From contig LJUY01000049.1 of the NCBI GenBank assembly GCA_001304015.1, positions 1 through 20,274 on the forward strand: 20,274 nt of DNA, written 5' to 3'. Shown here piece after piece: positions 4,940 through 20,274 of the stretch. The position numbers and the translations under genes are program-made. A model generated the notes under the pieces. The model searched no databases and was not told the origin of the DNA. It worked only from the letters and a program-made list of their open reading frames with translations. The stretch comes from a candidate division Zixibacteria bacterium SM23_81 (lineage in GTDB: Bacteria; SM23-81). Position 1 is the first letter of the stretch; the number at the start of each line of letters is the position of its first letter.

Positions 4940-5053
4940 TATGTCCTCCTCGGGATCATCGATCTATTCACAAAGTTGCTTTAGATAGTCATAGCCAAAA
5001 TTAAAATTGGTTTTCGCTGGAATTGACCCTAGCTACTCATGCTTTCTCCATAC

Positions 5054-5298: not shown

Positions 5299-5874
5299 TC
5301 AAAGATTTTTCTTTTCACAAGGATCCAGGATCAAGGATCCAGCATCCCGGTATTGCCGCACCACCTCGAAAACCACCACCCCAAAGGCCACGGCTACATT
5401 TACAGAGTTCTTGAAGCCCCACATGGGGATCTGCACGATCTCATCAGTCATCTCCAGAACCTCTCGAGATATGCCCAGAGCCTCGTTTCCCACCACCAGG
5501 CCGATGGGACTGGGATAGTCGACCTGGTCAAAGGGCTTGCTGGCATCGGTGACTTCCAGGCCGACCACTTTGACCTTCTCTTTTTTTAGCTTATCCACGG
5601 CCTGCACGGTTGTCGGGCAATACTCCCAGTCTACATAATCCATGGCTCCCATGGCCGTCTTGATGACTTTTAGGTTCGGGGGATGCGCCGTAATTCCGCA
5701 GAAGATAACTTTCTGAACGCGGGCGCAGTCTGCGGAGCGGACAATGGATCCCACGTTGAAGGCGCTGCGCAGGTTGTCCAGAACCACGTGGATGGGATGG
5801 CGGGGAAGCTTTCGGAACTCCTCTGGGGAAAGGGGAGAATCGTGAGATTTGACCTGAAAAGTTGTCTCTCTCAT
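5299..5874 (-). CDS. SpoU/TrmH-family RNA 2'-O-methyltransferase
   Basis: From ATG 5874 the product is 191 residues starting MRETTFQVKSH. That ATG overlaps the TGA of the SPL-like gene (ATGA, 5871-5874), which argues for translational coupling and against the longer frame from 5970. The three SPOUT motifs are present: NLRSAFNVGSIVRSADC (motif 1, with the catalytic-type Arg), PIGLVVGNEALGIS (motif 2) and IPMWGFKNSVNVAVAFGVV (motif 3). These form the trefoil-knot SAM site and dimer interface. The family methylates a ribose 2'-OH in tRNA or rRNA; the target here is unknown. The family core ends near VVRQY. The remaining residues (DAGSLILDPCEKKNL) are encoded by a GGATCCTTGATCC-type repeat, so the C-terminus has been extended by repeat sequence. 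Confidence 0.9.
   Translation of the reverse strand: MRETTFQVKSHDSPLSPEEFRKLPRHPIHVVLDNLRSAFNVGSIVRSADCARVQKVIFCGITAHPPNLKVIKTAMGAMDYVDWEYCPTTVQAVDKLKKEKVKVVGLEVTDASKPFDQVDYPSPIGLVVGNEALGISREVLEMTDEIVQIPMWGFKNSVNVAVAFGVVVFEVVRQYRDAGSLILDPCEKKNL
5312..5346 (-). repeat. GATCCTTGATCC-type short repeat inside the TrmH 3' end
   Basis: On the minus strand the order is GGATGCT, GGATCCTT, GATCCT, GGATCCTT, GTGAAAAG. The same order of words (GGATGCT, CGATCCTTGATCCTTG, AAAAG) occurs on the plus strand at 11586-11612. This copy is translated as the last residues of the methyltransferase. It belongs to the dispersed short-period repeats seen in other spacers here. Confidence 0.6.
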
Positions 5875-6974
5875 GGTTGCACCCGTCGGTCCAGCAATCG
5901 GGAAAGGGTGGCCATGTTGCCCGGCGACCAACCAAAGGCTTGGCGCCACACCTGGTCGCTCTCCATGCACAGGTAGACGAAGACGCCCGGATCATGTTCT
6001 TTGATCCATGTGTGCAGCTTCCGAAACATCTCGACGCGAATCGGCTTGAAGTATCTGAGCTTGCCATCATCGCCAGGGAAGAGCTCGCCCAGGACAATCT
6101 TGCTCTGTGGATGCCTCCGCCGAATGATTTCGTCTAGCTCTGGCGGATATCTCAGTGCTCCCAGGCTGATCCAGGCGATGGCCTTGGGATCTACGTATTG
6201 GAAGATGCCGTCCACCACCTGGCGGTATTCTTTTTCCCAGCCGGGAAACTCGATGAGAGGATCGAAGTGAAAGCCAATCCGATACCCCGCCTGGTCACAG
6301 CGACGGGCCGCCTTCAGGCGGTCTCGAACCGGAGGGGCTTCTTTTTCTTCTTTCTGGACGACTGAGTCCGTATTAAGTGACCAGGAGACCACCGTCCGGC
6401 CTCCATGTCGCATGTGGAGGAGATCCTCCACATGAGTTGTTTTGGTCTTTAGCTCCAGAATGGCGTTGGATTTGTCGGCGAAATACCCGATGAGCTGTCG
6501 GGCATGGTGGAAGACCGGATCCAAGCTCAGGCTGTCGGTGAGCTCACCGGTGCCTAAGCGGTAGAAATCGCTCTGGCCCGATGCCAGGAAATTGTCTAGC
6601 TGAGAAGTCAGGTCTTCGAGATTCGCATAGGCCACCAAAATGGGAATAGTAAGATAACTCTGCAGGATGCAGTAAGTGCAGTCCAGGTTGCAGTTGGTGG
6701 CCAGGTTGATAATTCGGTATCCGCAACAGATATAGTTTTTAGTGCCGGGGCAGAGCTTGATAAATGAGCCGCGCTGCTGGGCTATGAGCAGTAATCGCTT
6801 TCCGGCCCTGATGGGATCGGGCTCGCTGGAGAGATTCTGGACAGCCTCCCGGGTATCATCGATCACCTTCACGGGGACGGTGGACCATTGATCCAGCAGC
6901 TCCGCGGTGAAGGGCAGATCCTCGACGGACCGCTCCACGAAGATACGTTCCGGGATGAACTCTTTAGTCCCCAT
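5871..6974 (-). CDS. Spore-photoproduct-lyase-like radical SAM protein
   Basis: Predicted protein of 367 residues. KLCPGTKNYICCGYRIINLA leads into CNLDCTYCILQ, with the cluster cysteines at about 95, 99 and 102. The C-terminal VFVYLCMESDQVWRQAFGWSP is typical of SplB-type proteins. In Bacillus subtilis SplB, Cys141 (44 residues after the last cluster cysteine) donates the hydrogen atom. Here the matching region reads RLGTGELTDSLSLD and has no cysteine between residue 102 and about 226, so this is an SPL relative that probably does not run the classical reaction in the same way. It starts 15 nt after the ParB-like stop and ends in an ATGA overlap with the TrmH gene. Nothing else in the window suggests sporulation. 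A role in nucleic-acid repair or modification is inferred. The RBS before ATG 6974 is weak. Confidence 0.85.
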   Translation of the reverse strand: MGTKEFIPERIFVERSVEDLPFTAELLDQWSTVPVKVIDDTREAVQNLSSEPDPIRAGKRLLLIAQQRGSFIKLCPGTKNYICCGYRIINLATNCNLDCTYCILQSYLTIPILVAYANLEDLTSQLDNFLASGQSDFYRLGTGELTDSLSLDPVFHHARQLIGYFADKSNAILELKTKTTHVEDLLHMRHGGRTVVSWSLNTDSVVQKEEKEAPPVRDRLKAARRCDQAGYRIGFHFDPLIEFPGWEKEYRQVVDGIFQYVDPKAIAWISLGALRYPPELDEIIRRRHPQSKIVLGELFPGDDGKLRYFKPIRVEMFRKLHTWIKEHDPGVFVYLCMESDQVWRQAFGWSPGNMATLSRLLDRRVQP

Positions 6975-6989
6975 AGCAGCTATTTTGCC

Positions 6990-8000
6990 TCACGAAAGGT
7001 GAAAATGTAGCAGCTGATTGAGGAAGGGATCCTCGGTCAGCCGATGGAGAACCTTCCGGGCCGCCTCCAGCTCTTCCCGATTGCGGAAGGTTACCGAGAA
7101 TTGCCAGTCCTCTCCTTCGAAAAAGGGCGAAGCCTTCAAGGAGATGTGGGGTGGCAGCTTAAGCCTTTTTTTGAGTTCCTCAAACCGCTCTATTGCCTGA
7201 GCGAAGGTAGGATAGCGCCGGCGGATGAGTGCCTCCCGAACCCTCCGTGCTCGTACAGGAGCCTGAGCGACCGGATCGTTGATCAAAAGGGCGAGTTGCT
7301 CATCCTCGATCAAACTACTGAGGGGTATTTTTTCCTTGGCAGCGAGGTCCAGGAGCAGGGCCAGAAACTTGCGCTGCAGGCTCTTCCCCAAGCGTAGCTC
7401 TTCGATCAGCCAGGAGAATGCCTGGCGATCTTCTGGGCAGAGCGCCGCCAGCTGCTGGGCCAGCGCAAGGGAGATGCGATTGGAAGCTAGGTTATTTTGT
7501 ATCTCATTTGGCCAATCCGAGATCGACAGGTATAGGTCCAGGGTCTTGGGGTCGGAGCCCAGGCCCAGGGAGGGGAGGTGCTCTCGGAGGATGACCTCTT
7601 TGCTCAGTCCGAACTGCCGAACCAGCTTGCTCAGGACTAGAGATTTCTCTACTGTGTTTAGAGAGCGGGTTCCAAGGTTTTCCTCCAGGCCCAGCAGGAA
7701 GAGCTGAAGATCGTCCTCCGCTGTACTGATGTAGGCGATAACCTTTTCGCCCCCCAGGATCTCCAAGACTTTGAGACGTTTATATCCGGAGACTATGCGG
7801 TAGCGACGCGATTGACAGATCTCCTGGAGGATGAGAGGGTGCAGGATGCCTGCTCGTGCGATGGACCTCTTCAGCGGTGCCAGGTTCGGCGCAAAGGTGA
7901 TGACGTGGGTGAGGTCCAGGAGATTCACCATACTAAAGGAGACCTCCACCAGTGGCAGTGATGTCACCAATGCTTTTTTAAATGGGTAATCTATGTTCAT
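6990..8000 (-). CDS. ParB-like N-terminal domain protein
   Basis: Two ATGs are available, at 8006 and 8000. The one at 8000 gives an ATGA overlap with the glycosyltransferase stop (7997-7999) and a product of about 336 residues. The N-terminal 120 residues match the ParB/Srx fold: LKRSIARAGILHPLILQE (box I-like), YRIVSGYKRLKVLEILGGEKV (in place of the GERR..A box II of chromosome-partition ParB) and LEENLGTRSLNTVEKSLVLSKLV, where ParB has EN.QR..L.P.E.A. A helical middle and a C-terminal segment starting about residue 285 follow. The altered GERR-type motif and the distance from any parA or origin make a standard partition role unlikely. The tight link to the SPL-like gene suggests a DNA-binding, CTPase or nuclease partner, which is inference. 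Confidence 0.82.
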   Translation of the reverse strand: MNIDYPFKKALVTSLPLVEVSFSMVNLLDLTHVITFAPNLAPLKRSIARAGILHPLILQEICQSRRYRIVSGYKRLKVLEILGGEKVIAYISTAEDDLQLFLLGLEENLGTRSLNTVEKSLVLSKLVRQFGLSKEVILREHLPSLGLGSDPKTLDLYLSISDWPNEIQNNLASNRISLALAQQLAALCPEDRQAFSWLIEELRLGKSLQRKFLALLLDLAAKEKIPLSSLIEDEQLALLINDPVAQAPVRARRVREALIRRRYPTFAQAIERFEELKKRLKLPPHISLKASPFFEGEDWQFSVTFRNREELEAARKVLHRLTEDPFLNQLLHFHLS

Positions 8001-8986
8001 GACCATCTCGAGTAGTGCGAGGCGATTTCAAGAAACTGCTGGGCCAACTCTCGCTTTCCCCGCTTCTGGAATCCAGCGGCCACGATCCGGCACTTCTCCT
8101 GGAGGGTGGTGATAGCCCGTTTGCGAATGTGCTCGTTCAGATCTTTCTGGGCCAGCAGTCTCAGAATGGCCTTGATCCGATAGCGATCCAGGCCCCAGTA
8201 TTTGCGAGAGAGCTGGTCGGAGTGGCCGCCCCTTTTTATGATCAAGGGCTGATCGAGGAGAGCTATCTGGTAGTACGGGCCGATGCGCAGCCAGAGGTCG
8301 TAGTCCTCGCAAGCGGGGAGGGATTCGTCGAATAGGCCCACTCGGTCGAAAACCTCACGAGCGATGAGCACCGATGAAAGGCTGACGATGCACAGGGGCA
8401 GCATTTTGTCAAGGATCCAGCCGGAGTATTTGCGGTGCTTCTTCTTGGGATTGACCCGCACGCCTTGGCGGATCCAGATCTCCTCTGTATAGCAGACCTT
8501 TACCCCAGGATCCCGCCCCACCAGGTCCATTTGGGCTTGAAGTTTGTTTTTCAACCACAGGTCGTCGGAGTCCAAAAAGGAGATATAGCGCCCTTGAGCG
8601 TGACGAAACCCGGTGTTTCTGGCGGCACTGGCTCCACGGTTTTCTTGATGGTACAGGCAGAGGCGATCTCCATACTGGGCCAATCGGGTGGTGCTGTCGT
8701 CGGTGGAGCCGTCGTCGACCACCAGGAGCTCGAAATCCGTATAGCTCTGACTCAAAACCGAATCAACGGCCTCCGTCACCAGTTGAGACCGGTTGTAGGT
8801 GGGGATGATCACGCTGACCGTGGGACTCTCTAATTTGATAGGAAAACCGCCGATATTAAGGGTTTTATAGCAAATATCCGCTATGCGACCAATCTTAATT
8901 AAGGAAAGACGTCCCCAAAATAAGAACACCAGCGGACAAATATCAAGGTTTTTTTGTACAAAAAGGCCGTGAGTGTCCGCACCCAC
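7997..8986 (-). CDS. Family 2 glycosyltransferase (start uncertain)
   Basis: The GT-A core is clear: SVIIPTYNRSQLVTEAVDSV, FELLVVDDGSTDDST with the nucleotide-binding DD, NRGASAARNTGF, and YISFLDSDDLW with the DxD-like metal site. CEDYDLWLRIG follows later. GT2 enzymes transfer a sugar from a nucleotide-sugar to an acceptor, often in surface polysaccharide synthesis. The longest frame begins at GTG 8986, but that codon is inside the terminator of the upstream gene, and the first 52 residues do not look like GT2 sequence. GT2 proteins normally begin just before SVIIPTYNR, so translation probably starts nearer 8840-8812 at a non-ATG codon; GTG 8929 and GTG 8812 are the in-frame options. The gene is first in the cluster with the ParB-like and SPL-like genes, which is an odd partner for a glycosyltransferase. 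Confidence 0.82.
   Translation of the reverse strand: MGADTHGLFVQKNLDICPLVFLFWGRLSLIKIGRIADICYKTLNIGGFPIKLESPTVSVIIPTYNRSQLVTEAVDSVLSQSYTDFELLVVDDGSTDDSTTRLAQYGDRLCLYHQENRGASAARNTGFRHAQGRYISFLDSDDLWLKNKLQAQMDLVGRDPGVKVCYTEEIWIRQGVRVNPKKKHRKYSGWILDKMLPLCIVSLSSVLIAREVFDRVGLFDESLPACEDYDLWLRIGPYYQIALLDQPLIIKRGGHSDQLSRKYWGLDRYRIKAILRLLAQKDLNEHIRKRAITTLQEKCRIVAAGFQKRGKRELAQQFLEIASHYSRWS
8864..8892 (-). promoter_or_regulatory. Candidate sigma70-type promoter for the GT2-ParB-SPL-TrmH cluster
   Basis: On the minus strand TTGGTC (8892-8887) and TATAAA (8869-8864) are separated by exactly 17 nt. The -10 is close to consensus and the -35 is weak. It lies between the M3 peptidase terminator and the conserved start of the glycosyltransferase, where a promoter is expected. 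If it is used, the GT2 start must lie downstream of about 8858. Confidence 0.35.
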
Positions 8987-8988
8987 GG
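8960..8988 (-). terminator. Intrinsic terminator of the M3 peptidase gene
   Basis: On the minus strand CCGTGGGTG pairs with CACTCACGG (9 bp, one G-U) around the loop CGGA and is followed by CC and five Ts. It starts 28 nt after the stop codon of the M3 peptidase gene. It also covers the GTG at 8986 that opens the longest glycosyltransferase frame, which argues against that start. Confidence 0.8.
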
Positions 8989-9016
8989 CTCCTGTTATGG
9001 ATAAAGGGTTGTGGCC

Positions 9017-10915
9017 TCAGTCCATGGAGACTCCAGCCTCTTGGTAAAGCCTCTTCAGCTGGGTGATTTTGTCATCGATGAATCCGAAACAATCAGCTAA
9101 GAGCGCCGGGTCGGCCATATCCAGCCCTATGGTTTCCTCGATCATCCGGGGCCCGGGACGGTCGAAACCGTGGTGGACCAACTTGAGATAGTCTGTCACA
9201 AAGGCGGGGTCATTTTGAAGCTCCAGGAAGATCTTCAAAGACAGGGCGCCGGCGATGACGTAGTTAACGTTATACATGGGATGGGTGTAAAAGTGGTGGA
9301 TGACATTCCAGGCCCCCCGGTACTCGGGATGGATCTCGTAGTAGACGTTATACTTACTGCCCATCTCCTTAGTCAGAAGGTCGAGATCGTCGGCCGTCTG
9401 CAACTCTCCGGAGGCCACCTTCTCATAAATGGTGGCTTCCAGGTGGGCTATGAAGTTGAGGTACAGAAAGCGGATGGTTTTCTTGAGAAATTCCTCCAGG
9501 AAGAAGGTCTTCATCTCCAGGTTTGTGGCTCCCACATATAGATGGTCGATGAGCAGGAGCTCGTTGACCATGGCTACCGTCTCGGTGATGTAAGAGGGAC
9601 CGTCATAGTAGAGGGGTTCAATCCCCTTATTGGCCAAGGTTGTGTAGTGAACGGCATGCCCAGCTTCGTGGGCCAAGGTAGACACATTCTGAAGATAGCC
9701 CTCATAGGCGAAGGAGTAGAACTGCCATGGGGCTCCGGAATATCCATAGGCGAAAGCACCTGCGGCTCGGTTCTCTCCGGGCACTAGGTCCAAACGGCCC
9801 TGGTGAGGGTCCAAGAGGCTGGTCAGCTCCTGCCGATACTCCTGGCCCAGAATGGAGAGGGCCTCCAGGATCAGGTCGCTGGCCCGCTGGATGTCCCAGC
9901 GGGGTTTCTCAAACCCCTTAGGCGCCACCGATCGATCCCACGTGTACACCGTGTCGTAGCCGGTAGCCGCCTTGATGCCCTTCTGGTGGAGAAGCTGAAA
10001 CTTTTTGTTAAGCTCGGCGTGGTCGGCGATTTGATTGAATAGGTTGGTGGCCTGATTATAGCTGAGGAACTGGTCGAAGTACTCCGCCTGAGGATAGTTC
10101 TCGAACCCCCGCAGCTGGGCCAGCTTATTTCTGGTCTGCACGCTTTTAACTAGGGCGAAGGCGTAGAGATCTCGGTGAGTGTTCATGCTGCGGAAGTAAC
10201 CCTGCCAGGCGTCCTGGCGGATCACCCGGCTGGCGTCGTTGATCAGGCGATTGTAGTTCAGGTTGACGTCCAGGGTCTCGCCGGGGGTGACCACCAGTGC
10301 GGGGAACTCGGTGCGGTCGACGCACCTTTGAAAAAGCTCCTCCACCCATGGGGTCAGGTAAGGGTCCACCTGGGAGAGGATCTCCTCCTGGGGGAGGGGC
10401 AGCGTGTGGGGCCGGTAACGCAAAGCCTGCTCGATGGCGAAGGAGAATTTGTTCAGCTCCGGTTTTTTATCACGAAATGCCCGATAAGTTTCGTCGTCCA
10501 TCCTCTGGACCTCGGAGCGGATGAATTGAATGCGGCTCTTCAGATCGCCGGAGGTGGTCTGAATCTTGTTGAACAGAGCCATGTCGGTGGTATTGGTGGC
10601 GTATCGAAGGTACGCGTAGACCCAGAGTTTTCCCCACAGGGGAATCAACTCACTGCTGAGCTCATGGGCCCGGAGCAGATTCTCAGCCGATGCGATGACC
10701 TGTCCTTTCAAGTTCTCCAGATCCTCAATTTTGGCCACCAGCATCTGAAGATCAGTCTCGAAGGAGGCCTCGTTTTCGTAGAAGTTTTTCTCCAGTTGAA
10801 AATGGTAGAGTTCAAGTAGCTCCTTGGGAATGGGCTCAAAATCAGCGGCCGCTGGCGTAGTTAAAGAGCAGACCAATGCTAGCAAGACTGTTACCGATAA
10901 TCCTAGGTGTTTCAT
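9017..10915 (-). CDS. Secreted M3-family oligoendopeptidase (PepF-like)
   Basis: Predicted protein of 632 residues with a signal peptide, MKHLGLSVTVLLALVCSLTT followed by PAAADF, so it is exported to the periplasm or beyond. The long helical N-terminal half leads to the zinc site STLAHEAGHAVHY (H416, E417, H420) and YITETVAMVNELL (E445 as third zinc ligand), the M3 HExxH...E arrangement. GAFAYGYSGAPWQFYSFAYE just before it is a substrate-cleft region common in the family, and HPMYNVNYVIAGALSL lies near the end. Length fits oligoendopeptidase F. These enzymes cut medium-size peptides. AAAGGAGA sits 6 nt before ATG 10915, and an intrinsic terminator follows the stop. With the M20 and M28 enzymes it suggests peptide use as nutrient. 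Confidence 0.92.
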   Translation of the reverse strand: MKHLGLSVTVLLALVCSLTTPAAADFEPIPKELLELYHFQLEKNFYENEASFETDLQMLVAKIEDLENLKGQVIASAENLLRAHELSSELIPLWGKLWVYAYLRYATNTTDMALFNKIQTTSGDLKSRIQFIRSEVQRMDDETYRAFRDKKPELNKFSFAIEQALRYRPHTLPLPQEEILSQVDPYLTPWVEELFQRCVDRTEFPALVVTPGETLDVNLNYNRLINDASRVIRQDAWQGYFRSMNTHRDLYAFALVKSVQTRNKLAQLRGFENYPQAEYFDQFLSYNQATNLFNQIADHAELNKKFQLLHQKGIKAATGYDTVYTWDRSVAPKGFEKPRWDIQRASDLILEALSILGQEYRQELTSLLDPHQGRLDLVPGENRAAGAFAYGYSGAPWQFYSFAYEGYLQNVSTLAHEAGHAVHYTTLANKGIEPLYYDGPSYITETVAMVNELLLIDHLYVGATNLEMKTFFLEEFLKKTIRFLYLNFIAHLEATIYEKVASGELQTADDLDLLTKEMGSKYNVYYEIHPEYRGAWNVIHHFYTHPMYNVNYVIAGALSLKIFLELQNDPAFVTDYLKLVHHGFDRPGPRMIEETIGLDMADPALLADCFGFIDDKITQLKRLYQEAGVSMD

Positions 10916-10990
10916 TGATAATCTCCTTTCACTATCTTAGAGGTGGGGTTGTCGATCGTATCGGTGCTTGGGTATTGTGAGAAAATCTCC

Positions 10991-11539: not shown

Positions 11540-11574
11540 GATAGGTCCCTTCTTTTAGGATGCGAGATCTAAAT

Positions 11575-11780
11575 TCTTGATCCTGGATGCTCGATCCTTG
11601 ATCCTTGAAAAGCCGAGATTCGAGATTCGAGAATCGTGAATCGTGAAAAGAAAGACCGATCCTGGATGCTGAATACTAGAAAAAACAAAGGACAGAATTC
11701 GGGATTTTTTTTCACGATCACCGATTACCGAAAGAAAGAGCGATCCTGAATCCTTGATGATAGCAAGTGAAATGATATCA
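11575..11780. repeat. Mixed short-period repeat tract (GATCCTTGA, GAGATTC/GTGAATC families)
   Basis: The spacer 11540-12027 holds no convincing gene. Its left half is built from short words: GATCCTGGATGCT and GATCCTTGATCCTTGAAAAG at about 11579-11612; five heptamers GAGATTC, GAGATTC, GAGAATC, GTGAATC, GTGAAAA at 11615-11649; another GATCCTGGATGCT near 11664; CACGATCACCGATTACCG near 11712-11730; and GATCCTGAATCCTTGATGA near 11742-11760. The 121-codon frame that crosses it on the minus strand is made of translated repeat and I reject it as a gene. The tract lies just upstream of the flavin reductase RBS, so a promoter may be embedded. Confidence 0.75.
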
Positions 11781-11896
11781 GTGGTCCTTTTTCTGACGCC
11801 ACCTGATGACTCTATGCGAGAGCTATGTTGCCTATGTAGCGTCGGGTGCGGTGACCCAACGCCACCGACAAACAGCAATGGCAGTTGGCAGGTTTT

Positions 11897-11931
11897 CACG
11901 ATCAACGATTCACGATCCACGATTCACGTTA
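11897..11931. repeat. Heptamer array, CACGATY x5
   Basis: Exact 7-bp steps read CACGATC, AACGATT, CACGATC, CACGATT, CACGTTA. The reverse complement (GATCGTG, AATCGTG) matches the GTGAATC heptamer family at 11615-11649, so both orientations occur in one spacer. The stretch between the two tracts (11781-11896) shows no gene. Confidence 0.75.
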
Positions 11932-12027
11932 CCAGCTTCGAAGCCGCCAACGATTAACAATCCATTTATCCCTGAGGAGCGCCAGCTCTTCGAGCTCTGT
12001 CCGCAGAGGCAGGAGCCTCAGCGAGGC

Positions 12028-12090
12028 ACAACTCTCTAAACTCTCACAACTCTCTGAACTCTCTCAACTCTCCAAACTCCCACAACGCTC
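12028..12090 (-). repeat. Seven-unit 9-bp tandem array abutting the M20 stop codon
   Basis: In the direction of transcription, directly after the TGA of the M20 gene (12093-12091), the sequence runs GAGCGTTGT, GGGAGTTTG, GAGAGTTGA, GAGAGTTCA, GAGAGTTGT, GAGAGTTTA, GAGAGTTGT. These are seven 9-bp units with consensus GAGAGTTNN, 63 bp in all, with no base between stop codon and first unit. Units are cleaner away from the gene. Just beyond lie small hairpins, such as GAGGC AGGA GCCTC at 12006-12019 and GCCTC/GAGGC with a 3-nt loop. A role in 3'-end formation is possible but not shown. Confidence 0.85.
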
Positions 12091-13422
12091 TCACCCCAGC
12101 ATTCTCTTCACCAACCGATAGTAGAATTTCGTGGCCAGCAGCAGATTATTCTGACTAATACGTTCGTTGCGGCCGTGTACCATGCTCAGCATTTCGGAAG
12201 GAGGTATATCCGGACTCACGGGGAAGAATCCATAGGCGGAGATGCCCTTCTGTCGAAAGAAACGAGAGTCGGTGCCTCCGCTGACCATGTAAGGAATGCA
12301 GCGGCAGCCGGGATCAAGCTCCTGCATAGTCTGGGTTATATTCTGGTAAAGGTCCGTCTCCAACGGGGAAACGGTTCCCTCGTCTGCTTGGATGGGCACG
12401 ATCTCCACCTCTTCCAGCCCCCCGAGGGCCTCATCCAGGGTTCTGCGCAAATCCTCAGCGGTTTGTCCCGGCAGCAACCGGCAATCGATGACCGCCTCGC
12501 AACTTTCGGGGATGATATTCTCCTTGGTTCCTGCCTGAATCATGGTGGGGGCGATGCTCAGGCGCACGAGAGTGTTGACCTCAGCGGCTACTCTAGGATG
12601 GGTCTTGCTGAGCTCATTCAGAAGTTGGTCATCCACTTGCAGTTTACCCTTAAAAGTCTGGCCGATGGTTGCCAGTCGAAGGCTCAGATACTGTTCGACG
12701 ATGTCTGACTGATGAATGGGGGTTTTCAAGGTGCCCAGCTTTGCCAGATAGGTAGACATCTTCAATAGGGCGTTATCCCGGTGGGGCATGCTGGCGTGGC
12801 CCGGTGTGCCCCGCGTGATGAGCTTGGTCCAGAACACCCCCTTTTCGGCCACCTGGATGGTGTAGTGGTTGCGCCCATCGATGGGCAGCGCATGGCCACC
12901 GCCCTCGTTGACGACGAAATCGGCCTGCACCAGCTCAGGGCGATGTTTCATCAGCCAGCCGGCACCCATGTTGCCGCCCTTCTCTTCATCGGCCCACAAC
13001 GCGAGCGCCACATCTCCCCCGGGCTCGAAGCCCTCCCGCAGGAGAAGGAGCAGGGCCACCACCTCAGCTGCCACCATCCCCTTACAGTCCCATGCTCCTC
13101 GACCATAGACCAGGCCCTTATCCACCACACCTGCAAATGGTGGGTGATCCCAGCCCTCCTGGGAGGCGGGAACGACGTCGAGATGAGCCATCAAGAGCAG
13201 GGATTTTTGTCCTCTCCTGCCGGGTATTCTTGCCACCAGGCTGCCTCTGCCCGGGGCGGACTCAATGATCTCAGCCTTCAGGCCCTCGGCAAATAACAGG
13301 TCTTGGATGAACCGTGCAGCGGCCGTCTCGTTTCCAGGCGGATTGGAGGTGTCGATCCTGATAAGTTCAGATAAAAGCTCGGTGACTTCTTTCTGCACAG
13401 CATCGTTCTCGAACTCGGGCAT
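12091..13422 (-). CDS. M20-family metallopeptidase (ArgE/DapE/ACY1-type)
   Basis: Predicted protein of 443 residues, cytoplasmic. Metal-site motifs in order: LLLMAHLDVVP (H80, D82), YGRGAWDCKGM (D112 bridging ligand), LWADEEKGG (E146 catalytic, E147 ligand), FVVNEGGG (E173 region) and MVHGRNERIS (C-terminal histidine ligand). RGTPGHASMPHRDNAL starts the dimerisation lid. SGGTDSRFF near the end is typical of the ACY1/CPG2-like branch with broad acyl-amino acid or dipeptide substrates. AAGGAGC lies 6 nt before ATG 13422. It follows the TPR gene across a 311-bp repeat-filled spacer. A 9-bp tandem array starts directly after its stop. Exact substrate cannot be read from sequence. Confidence 0.93.
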   Translation of the reverse strand: MPEFENDAVQKEVTELLSELIRIDTSNPPGNETAAARFIQDLLFAEGLKAEIIESAPGRGSLVARIPGRRGQKSLLLMAHLDVVPASQEGWDHPPFAGVVDKGLVYGRGAWDCKGMVAAEVVALLLLLREGFEPGGDVALALWADEEKGGNMGAGWLMKHRPELVQADFVVNEGGGHALPIDGRNHYTIQVAEKGVFWTKLITRGTPGHASMPHRDNALLKMSTYLAKLGTLKTPIHQSDIVEQYLSLRLATIGQTFKGKLQVDDQLLNELSKTHPRVAAEVNTLVRLSIAPTMIQAGTKENIIPESCEAVIDCRLLPGQTAEDLRRTLDEALGGLEEVEIVPIQADEGTVSPLETDLYQNITQTMQELDPGCRCIPYMVSGGTDSRFFRQKGISAYGFFPVSPDIPPSEMLSMVHGRNERISQNNLLLATKFYYRLVKRMLG

Positions 13423-13436
13423 ATGCTTGCTCCTTT

Positions 13437-13546
13437 TTTGAGATTCGGGGGAAACGTGATTTGAGATTTGGGACTCGGGATTTGGGAACCGTAAAAATCC
13501 GAAATTCGAGAGAAAGCCGGGATCCGGGAACCGGGGATCGTGAAAG
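13437..13546. repeat. Heptamer repeat tract (GGGATTT/GTGATTT family)
   Basis: Two runs of exact 7-bp steps are present. At 13456-13490 they read GTGATTT, GAGATTT, GGGACTC, GGGATTT, GGGAACC. At 13519-13546 they read GGGATCC, GGGAACC, GGGGATC, GTGAAAG. They share the G.GA(T/A)(T/C)(C/T) pattern of the heptamers at 11615-11649. The tract directly abuts the RBS of the M20 gene, so the M20 promoter must be within or beyond it. No gene is seen in the spacer 13423-13733. Confidence 0.75.
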
Positions 13547-13599
13547 GCTGTTTGATGTCCCCTGCATACGGCCTGCTGCCGACTGCTCCTCTCTTTTCT

Positions 13600-13733
13600 C
13601 TGCCAACTGCAACTGCCAACTGCTACTCGTCTTTCACTGTTTACCGCTTACTGCATACTGCCGACTAGTTTTTCATTGCCATTGCCACTGCTATTGCCAT
13701 TTATCTTTGCCTGCCAACTACCACTTTCTTCAA
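13600..13733. repeat. Heptamer and hexamer repeat tract (ACTGC and ATTGC families) next to the TPR stop codon
   Basis: CTGCCAACTGCAACTGCCAA starts near 13600. Heptamers at 13641-13661 read TTACCGC, TTACTGC, ATACTGC. Hexamers at 13674-13697 read CATTGC, CATTGC, CACTGC, TATTGC. Then CTGCCAACTACCACT leads into CAACTA, whose CTA is the reverse complement of the TAG stop of the TPR gene (13736-13734). So the repeat-like sequence reaches the stop codon itself. The word family differs from the GGGATTT tract in the same spacer. Confidence 0.7.
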
Positions 13734-15590
13734 CTATTTTCTAGAAGTTAATAGTATGAAATCAGGATCATACCATAAATTCTCCAGGTCGAAATCGGCG
13801 CGAGATTGTCGTCGATTTACGTATCCATCGGCAAAGGCTCTCCGGAGCCATTTCAAAGCATTAGCCTTATCCCCTTTGATGGCATATATGCAGGCCAGGT
13901 CGTATTTGGCTTGCGGGTATGGAAAGCGTAAGACGGCCTCCAATCCATGGGTCAGGGCCCCTTCATAGCGTCCCAATCTACACAGAAGAATTCCCAGCAA
14001 GCCCTGATCAGCTGGTCCCACGGCCTGGTGATTCTCTCCTACCAGGATGTCCATCAAGAGTTCCAGGAGCTCCTTTGAACTTTGGTGATCGCCCCGTCGG
14101 GCATGGGCGAGAGCGGCGTGGTAGAGGAAATCCCAGTTTAATTCCTGGCTGCAGGCGGCCTCCAAATTGGCCACAGCGCGCCAGTGCTGCCTTTGTCGGA
14201 GGCAAATAAGCCCCCGTAAGTACTGAGCCAGGGGGAGGTCTCCCTCCTGGCGGAGAGCTCGCTCCGCCAGGACCTCAGCCCTCTTTTCCTGTTGCATCTG
14301 AAATAGGGTCAGGCCGATCATGGCCTGCGCCCTGGCGTCTTGGGAGGCCAGATCTTGTGCCTGAGCCAGAAGTTCCTCGGCAAACTCTTGTTGCCAATTC
14401 TCAAAGTGAAGCAAGGCCAGGCTCATGTTCTCCTGGATCCACCAATACCAGTTCTCCTGCTGTGCCGAAGATAAGGACAGCTCTTGGGCCATGGCTTCGA
14501 TGGCCTTCTCCAGGTTCCCAGTCATCTGATAGCTGGTGGCAAGCTGTCCCCAGCCTAGAGTTCGGCGTATTGTTGGGGTTTCCTCCACCTGGACATAGTC
14601 GCTGAGATGCTGGATGGTCTGTGGCCACAGGCCCTGGTAAGCCAGGAGGCGACCTAGGGTCAGGGGTACACCTTCTTGCCAGGCGTAGTCCCGATACCTC
14701 TCAATCAACCTGGACAGCTCAGCCACCGCCCCCTCCAGATCTCCATCCACAAACCACAGCCACCATCCTCGGGCATATTGGCGTTCCCATTCCGGCAGCC
14801 TCTCCAGAAATCGGTTGGCCATGATGAGCGATTCTCTAGCAGATCCCTGCGGAATGCCCAGGGCCTGGGATTGGTCATAGATCTTCGCCAAGAGGAAATG
14901 GGCTCGGGTAAAGGCGCTGTCGATGGTAGTGGCCAATTGGAGATGATCAACCGCCTGGGGCAGAGAGCTGTCATCGGAGATGATGTAGTCCTCGACGGCC
15001 ATGGCATAATGGCGATAGGCAGGAATGGAACTAGTGGTCACCTGGGTAATGGGGGGAAGATGCTCAGGAGTTGTCCAGCCCAGAGTCTGGGCAACTTTGA
15101 GGCTGAGGAAGTCCACGGCATCGAAGATTTTCTGGAAGTCGTCGGCCACAACGTGGTCTTTGAGGAGCAGTTCTTGGTCGTTTTTCCCGACCAGCCAGAC
15201 GTCCAGGCGAAAGCCCACACCCAGGGCGGAAATGCTTCCCGTCAGAACTGCCTCGGCCCGGAACTGGCGGAGGGCATCTTCAACGGACAGTTTCAACTCT
15301 CTTCTCGGGGACAGAGGACCGGCCTGCTCTAAAAGCCGCTCTAACCGCACCGCGCGCAGAGGAGACCGTCTGTTCAGCTCCGTGGCGAACATGTCCACCA
15401 GCCCGGTATCCAGCCATCTTCGGTCTTCTCCAACTGACCCGGTTTTAAAGGGGATAATGACCACAGGGCTCAACTGACCCGTTAAAACTGACCCGCTCGG
15501 ACGCCAGTTTCTCCAGGGTCTCCATACAGCCAGCAGAAGAGCTATCATGACGAGTGTGGTCAGGAGAATTTTATTTTTGCCCAGCTGCAA
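13734..15590 (-). CDS. Membrane-anchored TolB-like/TPR protein
   Basis: I place the start at TTG 15590, 7 nt after a strong AAGGAGA, giving 618 residues; a frame from TTG 15629 would bury that RBS inside the gene. One transmembrane helix (ILLTTLVMIALLLAVW) is followed by a TolB-like domain: VVIIPFKTG, WLDTGLVDMFATELN, AVRLERLLEQAG, and VEDALRQFRAEAVLTGSISALG followed by DVWL. The rest, about 400 residues, is tetratricopeptide-like helical repeats, e.g. HLQLATTIDSAFTRAHFLLA, AQYLRGLICLRQRQHWRAVA and AKYDLACIYAIKGDKANALK, ending ADFDLENLWYDPDF. In many bacteria this module follows a Ser/Thr kinase, adenylate cyclase or winged-helix domain; here no such domain precedes it, only a membrane anchor. 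Likely a scaffold in the periplasm or at the membrane. Partner unknown. Confidence 0.83.
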   Translation of the reverse strand: MQLGKNKILLTTLVMIALLLAVWRPWRNWRPSGSVLTGQLSPVVIIPFKTGSVGEDRRWLDTGLVDMFATELNRRSPLRAVRLERLLEQAGPLSPRRELKLSVEDALRQFRAEAVLTGSISALGVGFRLDVWLVGKNDQELLLKDHVVADDFQKIFDAVDFLSLKVAQTLGWTTPEHLPPITQVTTSSIPAYRHYAMAVEDYIISDDSSLPQAVDHLQLATTIDSAFTRAHFLLAKIYDQSQALGIPQGSARESLIMANRFLERLPEWERQYARGWWLWFVDGDLEGAVAELSRLIERYRDYAWQEGVPLTLGRLLAYQGLWPQTIQHLSDYVQVEETPTIRRTLGWGQLATSYQMTGNLEKAIEAMAQELSLSSAQQENWYWWIQENMSLALLHFENWQQEFAEELLAQAQDLASQDARAQAMIGLTLFQMQQEKRAEVLAERALRQEGDLPLAQYLRGLICLRQRQHWRAVANLEAACSQELNWDFLYHAALAHARRGDHQSSKELLELLMDILVGENHQAVGPADQGLLGILLCRLGRYEGALTHGLEAVLRFPYPQAKYDLACIYAIKGDKANALKWLRRAFADGYVNRRQSRADFDLENLWYDPDFILLTSRK

Positions 15591-15657
15591 TGTTTCTCTC
15601 CTTATGATTCGAGTCAAGCCAATGGGCAAGGCGATCTACGGGCCACAAGATTGGTTT

Positions 15658-16560
15658 TCACAGATCGTGATCCTCCATTTGCCAAGCCAGAAGGAGGTCC
15701 AGGGCCAGGCCCTGCCAGGCGCCCCAGCGTTGGTCGGCGAAGTCGCGCAGCTTCGATCCGGTTGGCCTTTTTCCTTCAAAAAAGAGGTTTCCCATGACCT
15801 TGAGGACGTAAGTATCGATGAAAAAGGCATCATAGTGCCGCAGGCCATAGAGGATAGCGGCGTGGGCCGAGTAGGGTCCCAGCCCCTTGATAGACATCAG
15901 GCGCTCGGTTGCCTCCTCGGTGGTGCGTCCTTCGATTTGTCCCTCCAGGCCATTCAAGATGGCTAGGGAGACGTTTTGAATGGCCTGAGATCGGTAGGCC
16001 CCAATGCCTTCCAGCGCTTTTTGAGAGGATTTAGCCAGGACTTGTGCCGACGGAAAGGCGCTTACTTTGCGACCGTCGAGGAGAATAGAGGAACCGAACC
16101 TCTCGGCCAGGGCCATGAGCATCCGCCGGAAGGAGTGAAAGTTTGTGTTCTGAGAGACGACGGCCGAGACCAGCATCTCGTGGAGATCTCTTGTGGTCTT
16201 GACCCGGTAGCCTTTGAGTTCCATCATGGCCCGGGAAAGCGCCGGGTCGTTTTTGGCGATGTTGTAGAAAGCCGAAAGATCTTCGGTAAGACCCAGAGTC
16301 CAATCAAGTTGTGCGCATAAAGAGGAAATATCGCCCGAGCTCAGCTCCGTGGCGCTGCTTAGCAGCATCTGGATTTTGGGGCGGTTGATGGAGCCGCTCT
16401 GCACCAGCCGGGCCTCCACCACATGGCCACTGGGCGACAGCAAGGCTCGAACTGGCTTGCCATGCTCAAAGAGCCAGGGAGCAAAGAGATAGCCCCTTCG
16501 GATCCATCTCAGGTCATAGGGCGCCCTGGCCGTAACCTGACGCCGAATCCTCATCGGCAC
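15658..16560 (-). CDS. HhH-GPD DNA glycosylase, AlkA/OGG-like
   Basis: Predicted protein of 300 residues from GTG 16560 or 298 from ATG 16554; GGGAG lies upstream of both and the choice is open. The N-terminal 100 residues (beta-rich, VVEARLVQSGS) resemble the AlkA/OGG N-domain. LHEMLVSAVVSQNTNFHSFRRMLMAL follows (about 127-151). The helix-hairpin-helix is LMSIKGLGPYSAHAAIL (221-237) and the catalytic Asp is D249 in FFIDTYV. Base-excision repair enzymes of this type flip out and remove damaged bases. Bifunctional OGG1/Nth enzymes carry a lysine in the second hairpin helix; here that segment reads GPYSAHAA with no lysine, so a monofunctional, AlkA-like enzyme for alkylated or related lesions is more likely. 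It ends 67 nt before the TPR start. Confidence 0.87.
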   Translation of the reverse strand: MPMRIRRQVTARAPYDLRWIRRGYLFAPWLFEHGKPVRALLSPSGHVVEARLVQSGSINRPKIQMLLSSATELSSGDISSLCAQLDWTLGLTEDLSAFYNIAKNDPALSRAMMELKGYRVKTTRDLHEMLVSAVVSQNTNFHSFRRMLMALAERFGSSILLDGRKVSAFPSAQVLAKSSQKALEGIGAYRSQAIQNVSLAILNGLEGQIEGRTTEEATERLMSIKGLGPYSAHAAILYGLRHYDAFFIDTYVLKVMGNLFFEGKRPTGSKLRDFADQRWGAWQGLALDLLLAWQMEDHDL

Positions 16561-16624
16561 CTTGCTCCCGATATCGAGCTTTCATCGCGAAGCTCCATGG
16601 ACTTGCCTTGATCATAAACCAGAA

Positions 16625-16662
16625 AAGCTCACACCGCGCAGAGGGATAGGTGGTGTGAGCTT
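16625..16662 (-). terminator. Hairpin after the SpoIIE gene, probable terminator
   Basis: AAGCTCACACC and GGTGTGAGCTT form a perfect 11-bp stem around a 16-nt loop, starting about 78 nt after the SpoIIE-gene stop. On the minus strand the stem ends in TT followed by TTCTGG, a short U-run, so it is a moderate intrinsic terminator. The spacer 16561-16739 has no gene. Confidence 0.6.
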
Positions 16663-16739
16663 CTTCCGTTATGACGAGAACTTTAAGCTCGAGAATCAGA
16701 TGAAGCCAACATGATCTTGAAGCTGTTCTCTCCATGATT

Positions 16740-18038
16740 TTACAGAAGTTTAATGGCCACCAAAGTCATGTCGTCCTGCTGGGGCGTGTCACCGGTGAAG
16801 GCCGAGACCTCTGTTACGATCTTCTCCAACAGCGGCTCGGGGGAGAGGCTTCGATTTTCGGCTAAAAGTTTCAGCAGTCTTTCCTCTCCGAACTCCTCCT
16901 CCCGATCATTCATGGCCTCGGTGATGCCGTCGGAGAACATCAGCAACAGATCGCCTGGTCTTAGCTGAAGACGTTCCTCCTGGTAGGGCATTTGCGGCAG
17001 CATCCCCAGCACAATACCTCCCGTTTCAAGTCGACGGCAGCTGCCGTCCTGGCTTATCAGCATAGGCGAATTGTGGCCGGCATTGGTACAGGTGAAGGTT
17101 TTTTCATTCGTGTCGAGGATCCCGCAGAACAGAGTGGCATATTTGTCAGCCTCGGTGCTTTTGTGCAAGGCCGTGTTGGCCTCTGCGATGCAATCTTTGA
17201 CCGAGGTAGAAGTAACGACCTGCACTCGAAGTGTCGCCTGGATGTTAGACATAAGCAGAGAGGCCGGCACCCCTTTTCCCGAGACGTCGGCGATGACCAC
17301 CCCCAGGTGGTCTTCGCCCAGCTCGATGAAATCGTAGTAGTCTCCACCTACCTCTCTGGCTGGGTGACTGAGCCCGGCGATCTCGGCTCCCGGCAGTCGT
17401 GGATTTTCTTTGGGCAAGAGGCTTTGCTGGATGTCCCGGGCCATCTGGAGCTCTTTTTCCATCTGCTGCAGTCTCTTTTCTTCCTCGTACAGGCGAGCGT
17501 TCTCCAAAACCTGTGCTGATTGTGTGGCGATAATTCCCACCAATCGCTGATCGTCGGGAGTGAAAGTGCCTCCTCCCTTCTTGTTGATGAGGTTGATCAC
17601 ACCGATCATCTTATCCTTCACTTTAAGGGGCACGCTGAGCACCGACCGGATCTGGGCACTCTCCACCTTAACTCCTTTGAACCGTTCGTCAGAGGCAAAA
17701 TCCTCGATTAACAACGGCTTTTGATTTTTCAGCATCCAGCCGGTGAGGCTTACCCCCAGCCGATACGGAACTCCTTCGCTGGAGGCATCCATGCTGCGGA
17801 TCAAGGTCTTCATGGGAGAGAGGGCTTTGTCGGTGATCAACATTATGGCTCCCTGCTCGACTCCGACAGATTTGATGGCCTTTTGGACAATAAGGTTCAT
17901 AATCTGGTCTGTGGTCATGGTGGAGTCGATGGCTGCGGCCAGCTCGTTGAGAATGGTGAGCTCGGCTACCGCTCGCCGCAACCGTATGTTCTCCTCCTCC
18001 AAAGCATCGGTTTTATCCGAAAGGTCGGGGGATGACAT
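16740..18038 (-). CDS. GAF-domain SpoIIE/PP2C-type serine phosphatase (RsbU-like)
   Basis: Predicted protein of 432 residues. Residues 10-40 form a coiled coil (DALEEENIRLRRAVAEL). A GAF domain covers about 40-185 (SVGVEQGAIMLI, GVSLTGWMLKNQKPLLIEDF, RSVLSVPLKVKDKMIGVINL). A linker helix (RLYEEEKRLQQMEKELQMAR) leads to DIQQSLLP and the phosphatase: EVGGDYYDF (D233), VIADVSGKGVPASLLMS (D251), NAGHNSPML, LLMFSDGITEA (D370) and TPQQDDMTLVAI (D422/D423). All metal-binding aspartates are present. Such enzymes dephosphorylate an STAS-domain anti-anti-sigma factor in partner-switching, triggered by a ligand at GAF. No anti-sigma or STAS gene is nearby. GGAG lies 6 nt before ATG 18038. A hairpin follows the stop. 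Confidence 0.92.
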   Translation of the reverse strand: MSSPDLSDKTDALEEENIRLRRAVAELTILNELAAAIDSTMTTDQIMNLIVQKAIKSVGVEQGAIMLITDKALSPMKTLIRSMDASSEGVPYRLGVSLTGWMLKNQKPLLIEDFASDERFKGVKVESAQIRSVLSVPLKVKDKMIGVINLINKKGGGTFTPDDQRLVGIIATQSAQVLENARLYEEEKRLQQMEKELQMARDIQQSLLPKENPRLPGAEIAGLSHPAREVGGDYYDFIELGEDHLGVVIADVSGKGVPASLLMSNIQATLRVQVVTSTSVKDCIAEANTALHKSTEADKYATLFCGILDTNEKTFTCTNAGHNSPMLISQDGSCRRLETGGIVLGMLPQMPYQEERLQLRPGDLLLMFSDGITEAMNDREEEFGEERLLKLLAENRSLSPEPLLEKIVTEVSAFTGDTPQQDDMTLVAIKLL

Positions 18039-18125
18039 AGTCTTCTCCAGGTATCAGGTTGTTACTCCCTGCAGCAATGGGCGGAGTCTCTTCTAGGTCT
18101 TTCGCTTCACTTAGAGCTTGCTCCT

Positions 18126-18157
18126 TATTGCATTCAAGGTAAGCTCTGAATGTAATA
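18126..18157. other. A/T-rich imperfect inverted repeat upstream of the SpoIIE gene
   Basis: TATTGCATTCA (18126-18136) and TGAATGTAATA (18147-18157) form an 11-bp stem with one G-T pair around a 10-nt loop. It lies midway in the spacer 18039-18227, between the saccharopine dehydrogenase-like gene and the phosphatase. There is no T-run, so an operator or a weak terminator are both possible. No gene is seen in the spacer. Confidence 0.4.
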
Positions 18158-18227
18158 GATGAACAGGCTTCGTGAAGAGCTCAGGGTAATTTGCCCAGCC
18201 CAGGAATTCGCACCTTTCTGAGTGCCC

Positions 18228-19559
18228 TCAGGATGCAAGCTTTCTGGTCTTTTCCTTGAAACGGATTCCCAAGCGCTCCAGCTCCTTCAGCACTGGTTCA
18301 TAGATGTCTGGCAAGACGGGAATGTGCACGCCCGTGGCGGTGATCTCGCCGTGCAGAATCATCTTGGCGGCGATGGCGGCAGGCAGGCTTACCGTGCGAG
18401 CCATGGCCGAGTCCCCGTTGGGAATTCCGAAGTCCACCAGAGATGAGGTGATCATCTCCTTGGCGGGCAGCTCAGGATATTCGGCGATGAACTCGTGATG
18501 GAGAACGATCATATCCCGCTCGCCCTTCTCGTACGGCATCTTCTCCAGAAGCTTGGCGGCCAGTATGTCCAGGGGCGAGCCGCTTTCAACCGGCAGGGGG
18601 TCGTCGCTCAGCAGGCCCAGCCACTCGAATCGATCCATGATATCGGAGCCTTCCGGAATATCTAACTGCTTGGAAAGGTCAGATTTGAGGCTGCCCGTAG
18701 GGGTACCGATGAAGGTCTGGGTGAACTGAGCGAAGGTTTGGCCGGCCAGTCCAGTCCTCTCTTCATCGTCCAGAAGTCCTAGGTCCGCGAACTTCTTCCA
18801 GGTCTCACACCAACCCGGATAACGCAGGGTCCCTCGGTACATAGTTTTGATGTCGCCCAGGCCATAGAGCTCGATGTAGGGGATGGAGTTTCTGTTGGGA
18901 TAAGCCGTCAACATGCCCACACTTTCTATTCCGATGGTCCAGGTGTGAGCGAATAGGTCCTTGGAGGGCACAAACACCTCCTTGCCGTCCTCCAAATAGC
19001 GACCGGTGTTCTTGCCGGCTAATACGACTCCTCGCGGGCTCCAAGAGAACTTATATCCGAATGGATTGGTGTTTGCCTCTGGAGCGGGGAGTCCGCCGCA
19101 GTATGAGCGGAAGCTGATGATTTTGCCCCCTCGATTTTGGACCCCGTGTATAATCTTCATGGCGGACATGTGGTCAATGCCCGGATCGACACCGATCTCG
19201 TTGAGTATAAGAAGGCCTTTCTCCTGGGCGTCCCCATCTAGGGCCCTCATAGCATCGCTCACGTAGGAGGTGGTGACCATGGGCTTGCCGAGCTCCAGGC
19301 AGAGCTTGGCCACGTCTACATGGTAGGCATAGGGAACTAGGCTGATGACCAAATCTGACTCGGAGATCAGGTCTTGTAAGGAAGCTTTATCCTGGACCAG
19401 GAGGGTTTTAGCCTCACCCCTGGGGTGGCCGTCGATGAGCTTTTCTGCCTTGCTCACCGTGCGGCTGGCCACGACAAGCCTAAAATCAGGATTGTCTAAA
19501 AGATAGCATACGAGCGGTCTGGTAACCAGCCCGGCGCCGAGGACGAGAATGGTTTTCAT
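18228..19559 (-). CDS. Saccharopine dehydrogenase-like NAD(P)-dependent oxidoreductase
   Basis: Predicted protein of 443 residues. The N-terminal Rossmann fold is clear: ILVLGAGLVTRPLVCYLL (GxGxxxxP), VVASRTVSKAEKLI, and LISESDLVISLVPYAYHVDV followed by AKLCLE, then VTTSYVSDAMRALD. The C-terminal saccharopine dehydrogenase domain includes GVDPGIDHMSAMKIIHGVQN, SFRSYCGGLPAPEANTNPFG with YKFSWSPRGV, and GVHIPVLPDIYEPVLKELER near the end. The length and PAPEANTNP motif fit the Lys9-type (L-glutamate-forming) enzyme that joins or splits saccharopine in lysine metabolism. Other lysine genes are absent here, so use in a different amino-acid route is possible. AGGAGG is 7 nt before ATG 19559. Downstream is a 189-bp spacer, then the SpoIIE gene. 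Confidence 0.9.
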   Translation of the reverse strand: MKTILVLGAGLVTRPLVCYLLDNPDFRLVVASRTVSKAEKLIDGHPRGEAKTLLVQDKASLQDLISESDLVISLVPYAYHVDVAKLCLELGKPMVTTSYVSDAMRALDGDAQEKGLLILNEIGVDPGIDHMSAMKIIHGVQNRGGKIISFRSYCGGLPAPEANTNPFGYKFSWSPRGVVLAGKNTGRYLEDGKEVFVPSKDLFAHTWTIGIESVGMLTAYPNRNSIPYIELYGLGDIKTMYRGTLRYPGWCETWKKFADLGLLDDEERTGLAGQTFAQFTQTFIGTPTGSLKSDLSKQLDIPEGSDIMDRFEWLGLLSDDPLPVESGSPLDILAAKLLEKMPYEKGERDMIVLHHEFIAEYPELPAKEMITSSLVDFGIPNGDSAMARTVSLPAAIAAKMILHGEITATGVHIPVLPDIYEPVLKELERLGIRFKEKTRKLAS

Positions 19560-19585
19560 GGACGTGCCTCCTGTCGGAGAATAAA

Positions 19586-19637
19586 GGATTCAAGGATTTG
19601 AGGATTCAAGGAAGAAAAACAGCCACGAATCACGAAG
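19586..19637. repeat. Octamer and heptamer repeats around the S23-protein stop codon
   Basis: Three octamers GGATTCAA, GGATTTGA, GGATTCAA occupy 19586-19609, just upstream of the saccharopine dehydrogenase RBS. At 19624-19637 the heptamers CACGAAT and CACGAAG cover the stop codon of the S23 gene (TGA, 19632-19630). The last residues of that protein (SRSS) are therefore partly encoded by repeat-like sequence. The same words recur at 20110-20117 and 20202-20249. Confidence 0.65.
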
Positions 19638-20016
19638 AACGTGATTTTTCCAAAGCCTCTAAAGATTTGATTGGGGCCTTGAGCATCCTCTCAGTTTCTT
19701 TAAGAGACATATGTAAATTCTTGTGCTTTATTGATTCAAGATATTTTAAGTCGTGGCAAAGCATGAGTTGTGTTTCCAATTCGCAGAGAGAACCGTAGGC
19801 AAGGTAGAGAGCGTGAATATATTGTTGAGTTGTCCTCCTCCCATAACCCTCTGCAATATTGGAAGGAACAGAGACTGCAGCTCTTCGAATTTGTTGACTT
19901 AGACCGTATCTCTCCTCCTTTGGAAAGCCCTCGGTAGCATGATAGATGTCTAGGCACAGCTTGTATGATTTCTGCCAGACCTTTAGCTCGCGGTAATTTT
20001 TAAGCATCCCGGTCAT
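19630..20016 (-). CDS. Four-helix-bundle protein of the S23/Avd-like family
   Basis: Predicted protein of 128 residues from ATG 20016; ATG 20007 (MLKNYRELKVW) is also possible. The family pattern is very clear: YRELKVWQKSYKLCLDIYHA, FPKEERYGLSQQIRRAAVSV, PSNIAEGYGRRTTQQYIHAL and AYGSLCELETQLMLCHDL, then YL. Members form pentameric helical bundles, are encoded in 23S rRNA intervening sequences of some bacteria, and include Avd, the accessory protein of diversity-generating retroelements. No reverse transcriptase, template repeat or rRNA is seen here, so this is a free-standing member of unknown role. The gene is flanked on both sides by GGATTCAA-type repeats. The start has only a weak RBS. Confidence 0.9.
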   Translation of the reverse strand: MTGMLKNYRELKVWQKSYKLCLDIYHATEGFPKEERYGLSQQIRRAAVSVPSNIAEGYGRRTTQQYIHALYLAYGSLCELETQLMLCHDLKYLESIKHKNLHMSLKETERMLKAPIKSLEALEKSRSS

Positions 20017-20201
20017 CGGTTGTCAGATCTCAGAACAAAGATGCATCCCGGGTTTTCCTTAACCCCTCGAATCTTCTAGCACTATGTTTTCAATTACTTC
20101 TTAAATAAGGATTCAAGGAATTAACGATTCCAGCCTTCGAGTGCTTCCCTCTCCGCTGCCCCTTTTTAAAAGTGCTCAGGGTCTGAGGAAATTTTTTCCA
20201 T

Positions 20202-20249
20202 GATTCCCCGAATCCCTGAATCCTCGACTCCTTGAATCCTCGACCCCTA
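20202..20249. repeat. Six-unit octamer array reaching the stop codon of the right-edge gene
   Basis: Exact 8-bp steps on the plus strand: GATTCCCC, GAATCCCT, GAATCCTC, GACTCCTT, GAATCCTC, GACCCCTA. Consensus GAATCCTN. The last unit contains CTA, the reverse complement of the putative TAG stop at 20249-20247. The remaining spacer 20017-20201 has one more GGATTCAA word near 20109 and no gene. Confidence 0.8.
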
Positions 20250-20274
20250 TCTTTTCAGGTATTTCTCCAAATAA
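20247..20274 (-). CDS. Possible C-terminal end of a gene beyond the right edge
   Basis: On the minus strand the last bases read in one frame as YLEKYLKR followed by TAG, a plausible charged helical C-terminus. The octamer array begins exactly at this stop, as arrays do for other genes here. With eight codons visible no family can be named. Confidence 0.35.

Follow-up and report, generated by a model that had tools for sequence, protein, structure and literature searches.

Why should short tandem arrays, each built on a different word, meet the ends of so many genes in one stretch of DNA? The window, by which we mean the whole 20,274-nucleotide stretch analyzed here, is one complete contig (C68) of a 3.07 Mb draft genome (99 contigs, 92.6% complete, 4% contamination) with genes called by an in-house model. 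The closest named relative of its saccharopine dehydrogenase is a Zixibacteria bacterium protein (66% identity). A search within the genus and family for a synteny comparison gave one same-family genome, which has no M20 orthologue. The first-pass annotation had placed arrays at the 3' ends of at least five genes and hairpins behind two others, and had suggested that the arrays may replace terminators or mark a mutational hotspot at transcript ends.

At the right edge of the window, octamer arrays found by TRF flank an S23 gene on both sides. Reading along the minus strand, the left (5', purine) array of AAGGATTC/GAGGATTC octamers (20202..20249) is followed by a gene for an S23 / 23S_rRNA_IVP four-helix-bundle protein (19630..20016; PF05635, 134.4 bits; possible starts at 20007 and 20016) and then by a right (3', pyrimidine) array of CCTTGAATCCTT, the complement of the left word (19584..19611), after which the next gene begins at 19559. 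The first unit of the left array, TAGGGGTC, contains the stop codon of the contig-edge gene, of which 8 codons are seen, the remainder lying off the contig. Between the outer arrays, a degenerate inner pair, GAATCGTTAATTCCTTGAATCCTT ... AAGATTCGAGGGGTTAAGGAA (20055..20130, minus strand), is paired in the predicted RNA fold. Relatives of this S23 protein include 2gsc, which forms a homopentamer, and 2rld. The heptamer described earlier as covering the S23 stop codon, TTCGTGA, has just two copies there (19624-19636), and the true array is the one at 19584-19611, about 19 bp past the stop.

The remaining arrays are also read on the minus strand. A purine 9-mer array of GAGAGTT crosses the M20 stop codon (12027..12093; TRF), and its word is the bracket word of another S23 gene in the genome (L215:11863). 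The same spacer holds a purine array of 7/14-mer units (CGTGAAT/CGTTGAT; 11895..11928), which precedes the dispersed junction GAAAACCTGCCAACTGCC, and pyrimidine arrays TTCACGA/GAATCTC with an adjoining mixed array ahead of the flavin reductase start (11576..11647). A hairpin, GTCGGTGGCGTTGGGTCACCGCACCCGACGC (11839-11869), adjoins the array junction in this spacer and looks like another dispersed palindrome. Between the TPR and M20 genes, purine arrays of GGCAAT (13674-13701) and GCAGTTG (13600-13627) lie 3' of the TPR gene, and pyrimidine arrays of TTCCCGG and CCCAAAT (13458..13535) lie ahead of the M20 gene; the right-side words differ from the left-side words, and the polarity rule set out below is identical. 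The first array found by TRF at the TPR gene begins 32 bp beyond the stop codon, so this case, like that of S23, is weaker than first described. Lastly, a 7/14-mer array of GGATCCTT/GGATGCTG (5318..5347; TRF) is translated in frame as the C-terminal tail of TrmH (residues GSLILDP). In the spacer between TrmH and M28, GTCATTCCCGCGAAAGCGGGAATC and GGATTCCCGTTTACACGGGAATGACAG form an inverted pair (5053-5079 and 5206-5229) that is separate from the heptamer arrays and resembles widespread dRS3/MITE-like repeats.

Part of the first description is borne out by TRF and by the sequence itself: the arrays at the M20 stop, in the TrmH tail and at the right-edge gene are all present, the M3 gene is followed by a good intrinsic terminator (8966-8989), and the SpoIIE gene is followed by a 10-bp hairpin (16619-16661). 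The view that there are many words but one architecture, with arrays that can extend into a stop codon, holds as well. We read the arrays of the window as one S23 element together with S23-less arrays that are likely remnants of such elements.

All eight PF05635 genes of the genome were located, seven of them readable, and six of these seven lie between a purine array on the upstream side and a complementary array on the downstream side. No two of the six share a word (AAGGATTC, GAGATTC, GAGAGTT, GGCAATA, GGTGATC and ATGCAAA). The five commoner bracket words are the words dispersed elsewhere in the genome. When a bracket is strictly defined as a purine array of 6-9-mers ahead of the gene that returns as its reverse complement behind it, 18 of 33 S23 loci and 2 of 1822 control genes are bracketed (Fisher 2e-32); the 33 loci are a non-random sample, and 15 of them fall below the strict threshold. 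Across all 33, the match between an upstream array and its own downstream array averages 35.6, compared with 18.1 (sd 1.0) for permuted partners. Ordinary genes lie outside complementary array pairs and S23 genes inside them, a strong link that recurs in this genome, cyanobacteria, Gemmatimonadota (Gemmatirosa), Bacteroidota (Riemerella) and viral contigs. A search for S23 in phage records gave no match. All S23 genes examined sit between protein genes, and none lies within a 23S rRNA helix.

The word and the type of S23 travel together. Among 46 other genomes, AAGGATTC arrays occur in four. The same four, and no others, have a best S23 that reaches 52% identity or more with that of the window: the same-family genome, one Desulfatiglandales and two Aminicenantes. 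In the remaining 42 genomes S23 is more distant or absent. One Desulfatiglandales genome (G059, the genome of locus L140) has 26 S23 matches and 150 AAGGATTC array matches and would be a good model for co-amplification of word and S23.

How general are the arrays? The spacer scan covered 2.37 Mb of the genome (1928 genes called), and in the first 1.27 Mb, which was used for the count, we find 120 intergenic arrays compared with 2-6 in spacers simulated with a second-order Markov model. Periods 7 and 14 account for more than half of the 120. T-rich arrays of a style unlike the heptamers, ATTTTTTCCATGATTC with a period of 13-17, also lie between genes (L029:2480-2539, L036:1707-1783). In the scanned spacers, the attraction to stop codons noticed in the window is a weak tendency: 11 arrays overlap a stop codon (11.2 expected under uniform placement), 22 lie within 10 bp of one (18.1 expected), and the nearest array of a spacer lies within 5 bp of the stop in 18 cases (12.6 expected, p 0.07) and within 40 bp in 43 cases (31.8 expected, p 0.006). 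Against uniform placement, no strong enrichment at stop codons was found. Start codons are strongly avoided.

Polarity is the stronger rule. In tandem spacers read in sense orientation, arrays of the left half are G-rich (75:28) and those of the right half are C-rich (64:14; p 1e-13), and array-free spacers have no such switch between their halves. The order of G-rich before C-rich arrays holds in 44 of 46 multi-array spacers, compared with a mean of 24.8 and a maximum of 35 in within-spacer shuffles. Purine words enter the spacer from the left and their reverse complements leave it on the right, each word being used both ways. The same orientation is found in Nostocales plasmids, and a Desulfatiglandales genome adds a few further cases.

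Insertion is directly visible in cyanobacterial plasmids rather than in relatives of the window. At five loci, near relatives differ by the presence or absence of a whole bracketed S23 segment of about 430-510 bp. For instance, S23 separates cmr2 from cmr3 in Picosynechococcus PCC 7003 and is missing there in PCC 7002; a transfer operon carries S23 in Nostoc C052 and not in C057; and S23 is present in Trichormus and Scytonema and missing from Nostoc linckia and others, whose flanks are 97-98% identical. Two further empty/filled sites were found with the queries L298 and L292. At the second Nostoc site (C052/C057), strain ATCC 53789 adds a further state in which the arrays are present and the S23 gene is missing, so that empty, filled and S23-less states are all represented; the last is the state of most array spacers in the window. 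At 5 of 5 sites the left end coincides with the stop codon of the upstream gene or lies a few bases from it. In many cases this stop is provided by the inserted element or its array; the TGA that closes cmr2 belongs to TTTGAGGAG, and an integrase ends in GAAGAATAAAAGGG. These five sites show that arrays come to lie at stop codons through the insertion of a bracketed S23 segment. Target duplication varies, with 8 bp (GTAATTAA) at one site, a 3-bp overlap (ATG) at another and a flank that is partly lost or replaced at three.

Several side observations come from the same loci. Between the otherwise matching insertions of Trichormus and Scytonema, the array differs by exactly two 7-mers (L278:30336-30378, L295:759-785). 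S23 also lies between cas6 and cas4 of CRISPR operons in Anabaena sp. 90 and Pseudanabaena, and the cmr2-cmr3 insertion of Picosynechococcus 7003 is likewise in a CRISPR operon (loci L288, L289 and L293).

Most arrays in the genome have no adjacent S23. In S23-less two-phase spacers, the complementarity between arms is no better than with the arms of other spacers (p 0.37). Simple hairpins are therefore not the answer, and a hairpin or terminator role of these spacers was rejected; plain loss of S23 is insufficient for the same reason, and recombination or nesting is needed. Certain two-arm junctions, as well as a loop, are found repeatedly and in either orientation, and different spacers share blocks of 150-350 bp. 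This recurrence suggests dispersed units that are purine-rich on the left and pyrimidine-rich on the right, an arrangement that inversion leaves unchanged and nesting keeps, and spacers would show the G-before-C order because every unit has it. Telomere-like end addition followed by joining was also considered as the cause of this order and was dropped, as S23 brackets and empty sites offer a simpler one.

Taken together, we consider it likely that the arrays represent paired termini of small insertion elements (about 0.4-0.7 kb) that code for S23 and resemble the intervening sequences (IVSs) of 23S rRNA, and of their S23-less, nested or recombined remnants. Such an element would consist of a purine-rich 6-9-mer array, an S23 gene and the reverse-complement array. 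It would land at a gene junction, where its left end meets or enters the stop codon of the preceding gene and its right end stops short of the following start, so that both neighboring genes stay readable. In RNA, pairing of the two arrays would produce a long stem whose loop contains S23. Consistent with this, the RNA of the window element folds far better than shuffled sequences with its outer arrays paired (z -5.7), and in a folded Nostoc element the arrays form the terminal stem (z -7.3). By analogy with the rRNA IVSs, RNase III would cut the array stem and keep the neighboring reading frames usable. S23 may recognize its own word. A point against this reading is that the protein is not known to act as a nuclease or recombinase. 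What the analysis shows directly is the bracketing, the matching of words, the polymorphic insertions and the predicted fold; the S23-less arrays would derive from such elements.

Could the arrays instead be microsatellites that arise by slippage, pile up in spacers and owe their orientation to selection against purine words that mimic Shine-Dalgarno sequences before starts? The rarity of start-proximal arrays and their pyrimidine-rich sense strand fit this idea, as do whole-unit changes in copy number such as that between Trichormus and Scytonema. However, slippage does not account for the sharing of words between many spacers and phyla, for junctions and longer blocks that recur in both orientations or for the fact that S23 genes alone lie within matched brackets. 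The insertions are whole segments, and the empty and filled sites refute slippage as a full account. We regard it as unlikely. The suggestion that the arrays are terminators or regulatory sites at gene ends, which takes up the earlier proposal of a terminator substitute or transcript-end hotspot, can point to arrays that reach stop codons and to the strong fold of S23-element RNA. Against it stand start-side arrays made of the same words in reverse complement, convergent spacers that are no richer in arrays than tandem ones and the lack of preferential pairing between the arms of S23-less spacers; intrinsic terminators also exist in this genome. We hold such a role to be highly improbable.

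Two other explanations concern which gene moves the arrays. In the first, a Y1 (RAYT) transposase would mobilize them as REP/REPIN-like elements. In its favor, Y1_Tnp genes occur in 12 of 12 genomes searched, with three in this one, and REPINs share the logic of one gene with many gene-less hairpins. Yet the brackets surround S23 and not Y1, and the Y1 genes here have their own flanking palindromes and no matched heptamer brackets, which makes this explanation very unlikely. The Y1_Tnp genes at L053:8762-9013, L210:10067-10339 and L207:4331-4501 are flanked by GGTCAGGAGACC / GGGGCG...CGCCCC palindromes, so this genome has a REP system alongside its S23 arrays. Retro-mobility, in which S23, as kin of Avd (the accessory protein of DGRs), would assist a reverse transcriptase in producing the arrays, draws on a weak bAvd match of the window S23 (32.9 bits, under the cut-off of 40). 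Neither this genome (92.6% complete) nor the same-family genome has an RVT_1 match, and the latter nevertheless has 42 AAGGATTC array matches; we consider retro-mobility extremely improbable.

Returning to insertion elements that code for S23, a wider claim seems to us evenly balanced between true and false: that a general class of minimal mobile elements, with paired, word-specific 6-9-mer arrays at their ends, is driven by S23 four-helix-bundle proteins, that these elements together with their remnants make up most degenerate heptamers of bacteria (STRRs and the Xanthomonas GGGAATC repeats among them) and that 23S IVSs are the same element in rRNA. Already the insertion-element reading would explain the origin of a widespread bacterial intergenic repeat and tie together three puzzles, namely where intergenic heptamers come from, what the S23 family does and how 23S rRNA IVSs arose. 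It would also explain how such segments get into operons with no gene broken, as seen for cas, cmr and transfer operons, and it names a candidate gene and sites where insertion is testable.

The comparison with known systems begins with these rRNA IVSs. In Coxiella, tandem GACAGAT heptamers lie upstream of S23 in the 23S IVS, whose terminal stem is cut by RNase III, and the S23 family has no known function (PMC4990558). As in the IVSs of Coxiella, Leptospira and others, the elements described here have an S23 gene in the loop of a terminal complementary stem; the size is similar (428 nt in Coxiella), and purine heptamers lie upstream in Coxiella too. Unlike them, the present elements lie in gene junctions, their stem consists of paired tandem arrays, and many words and many copies occur per genome. 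Based on this shared plan of the RNA fold, we propose that they are intergenic relatives of the IVS, inserted at gene junctions.

The first-pass annotation knew of no named class that behaves in this way, and here it was mistaken. Cyanobacterial STRRs and the G-rich heptamers of Xanthomonas (GGGAATC) and Nostoc (GGGGA(T/C)T) are degenerate tandem intergenic repeats, and in the parts of Rehm et al. 2015 (PMC4692102) covered here the heptamers have the same orientation, with the G strand in sense after stops and antisense before starts and with some overlapping the stop. The orientation rule is thus already published. What sets our arrays apart from those heptamers is their range of periods (6-9), the use of at least eight words in one genome and the link to S23, which does not appear in those parts of the paper; S23 as the cause was likewise not found in the literature searched, of which the coverage is partial. 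The TAACTGA repeats of Beggiatoaceae and other bacteria are also abundant intergenic heptamer arrays that are patchy across phyla and sometimes overlap the ends of ORFs, but they use a single word, lie mostly just upstream of starts and have been proposed as sites of a translational regulator (PMC4679880). With REPIN/RAYT systems the arrays share one gene and many gene-less copies with inverted arms between genes, although the gene is S23 rather than a Y1 transposase and the arms are tandem arrays rather than palindromes. Finally, like MITEs and DNA transposons, these elements are present or absent at a site between close relatives, as seen at five sites.
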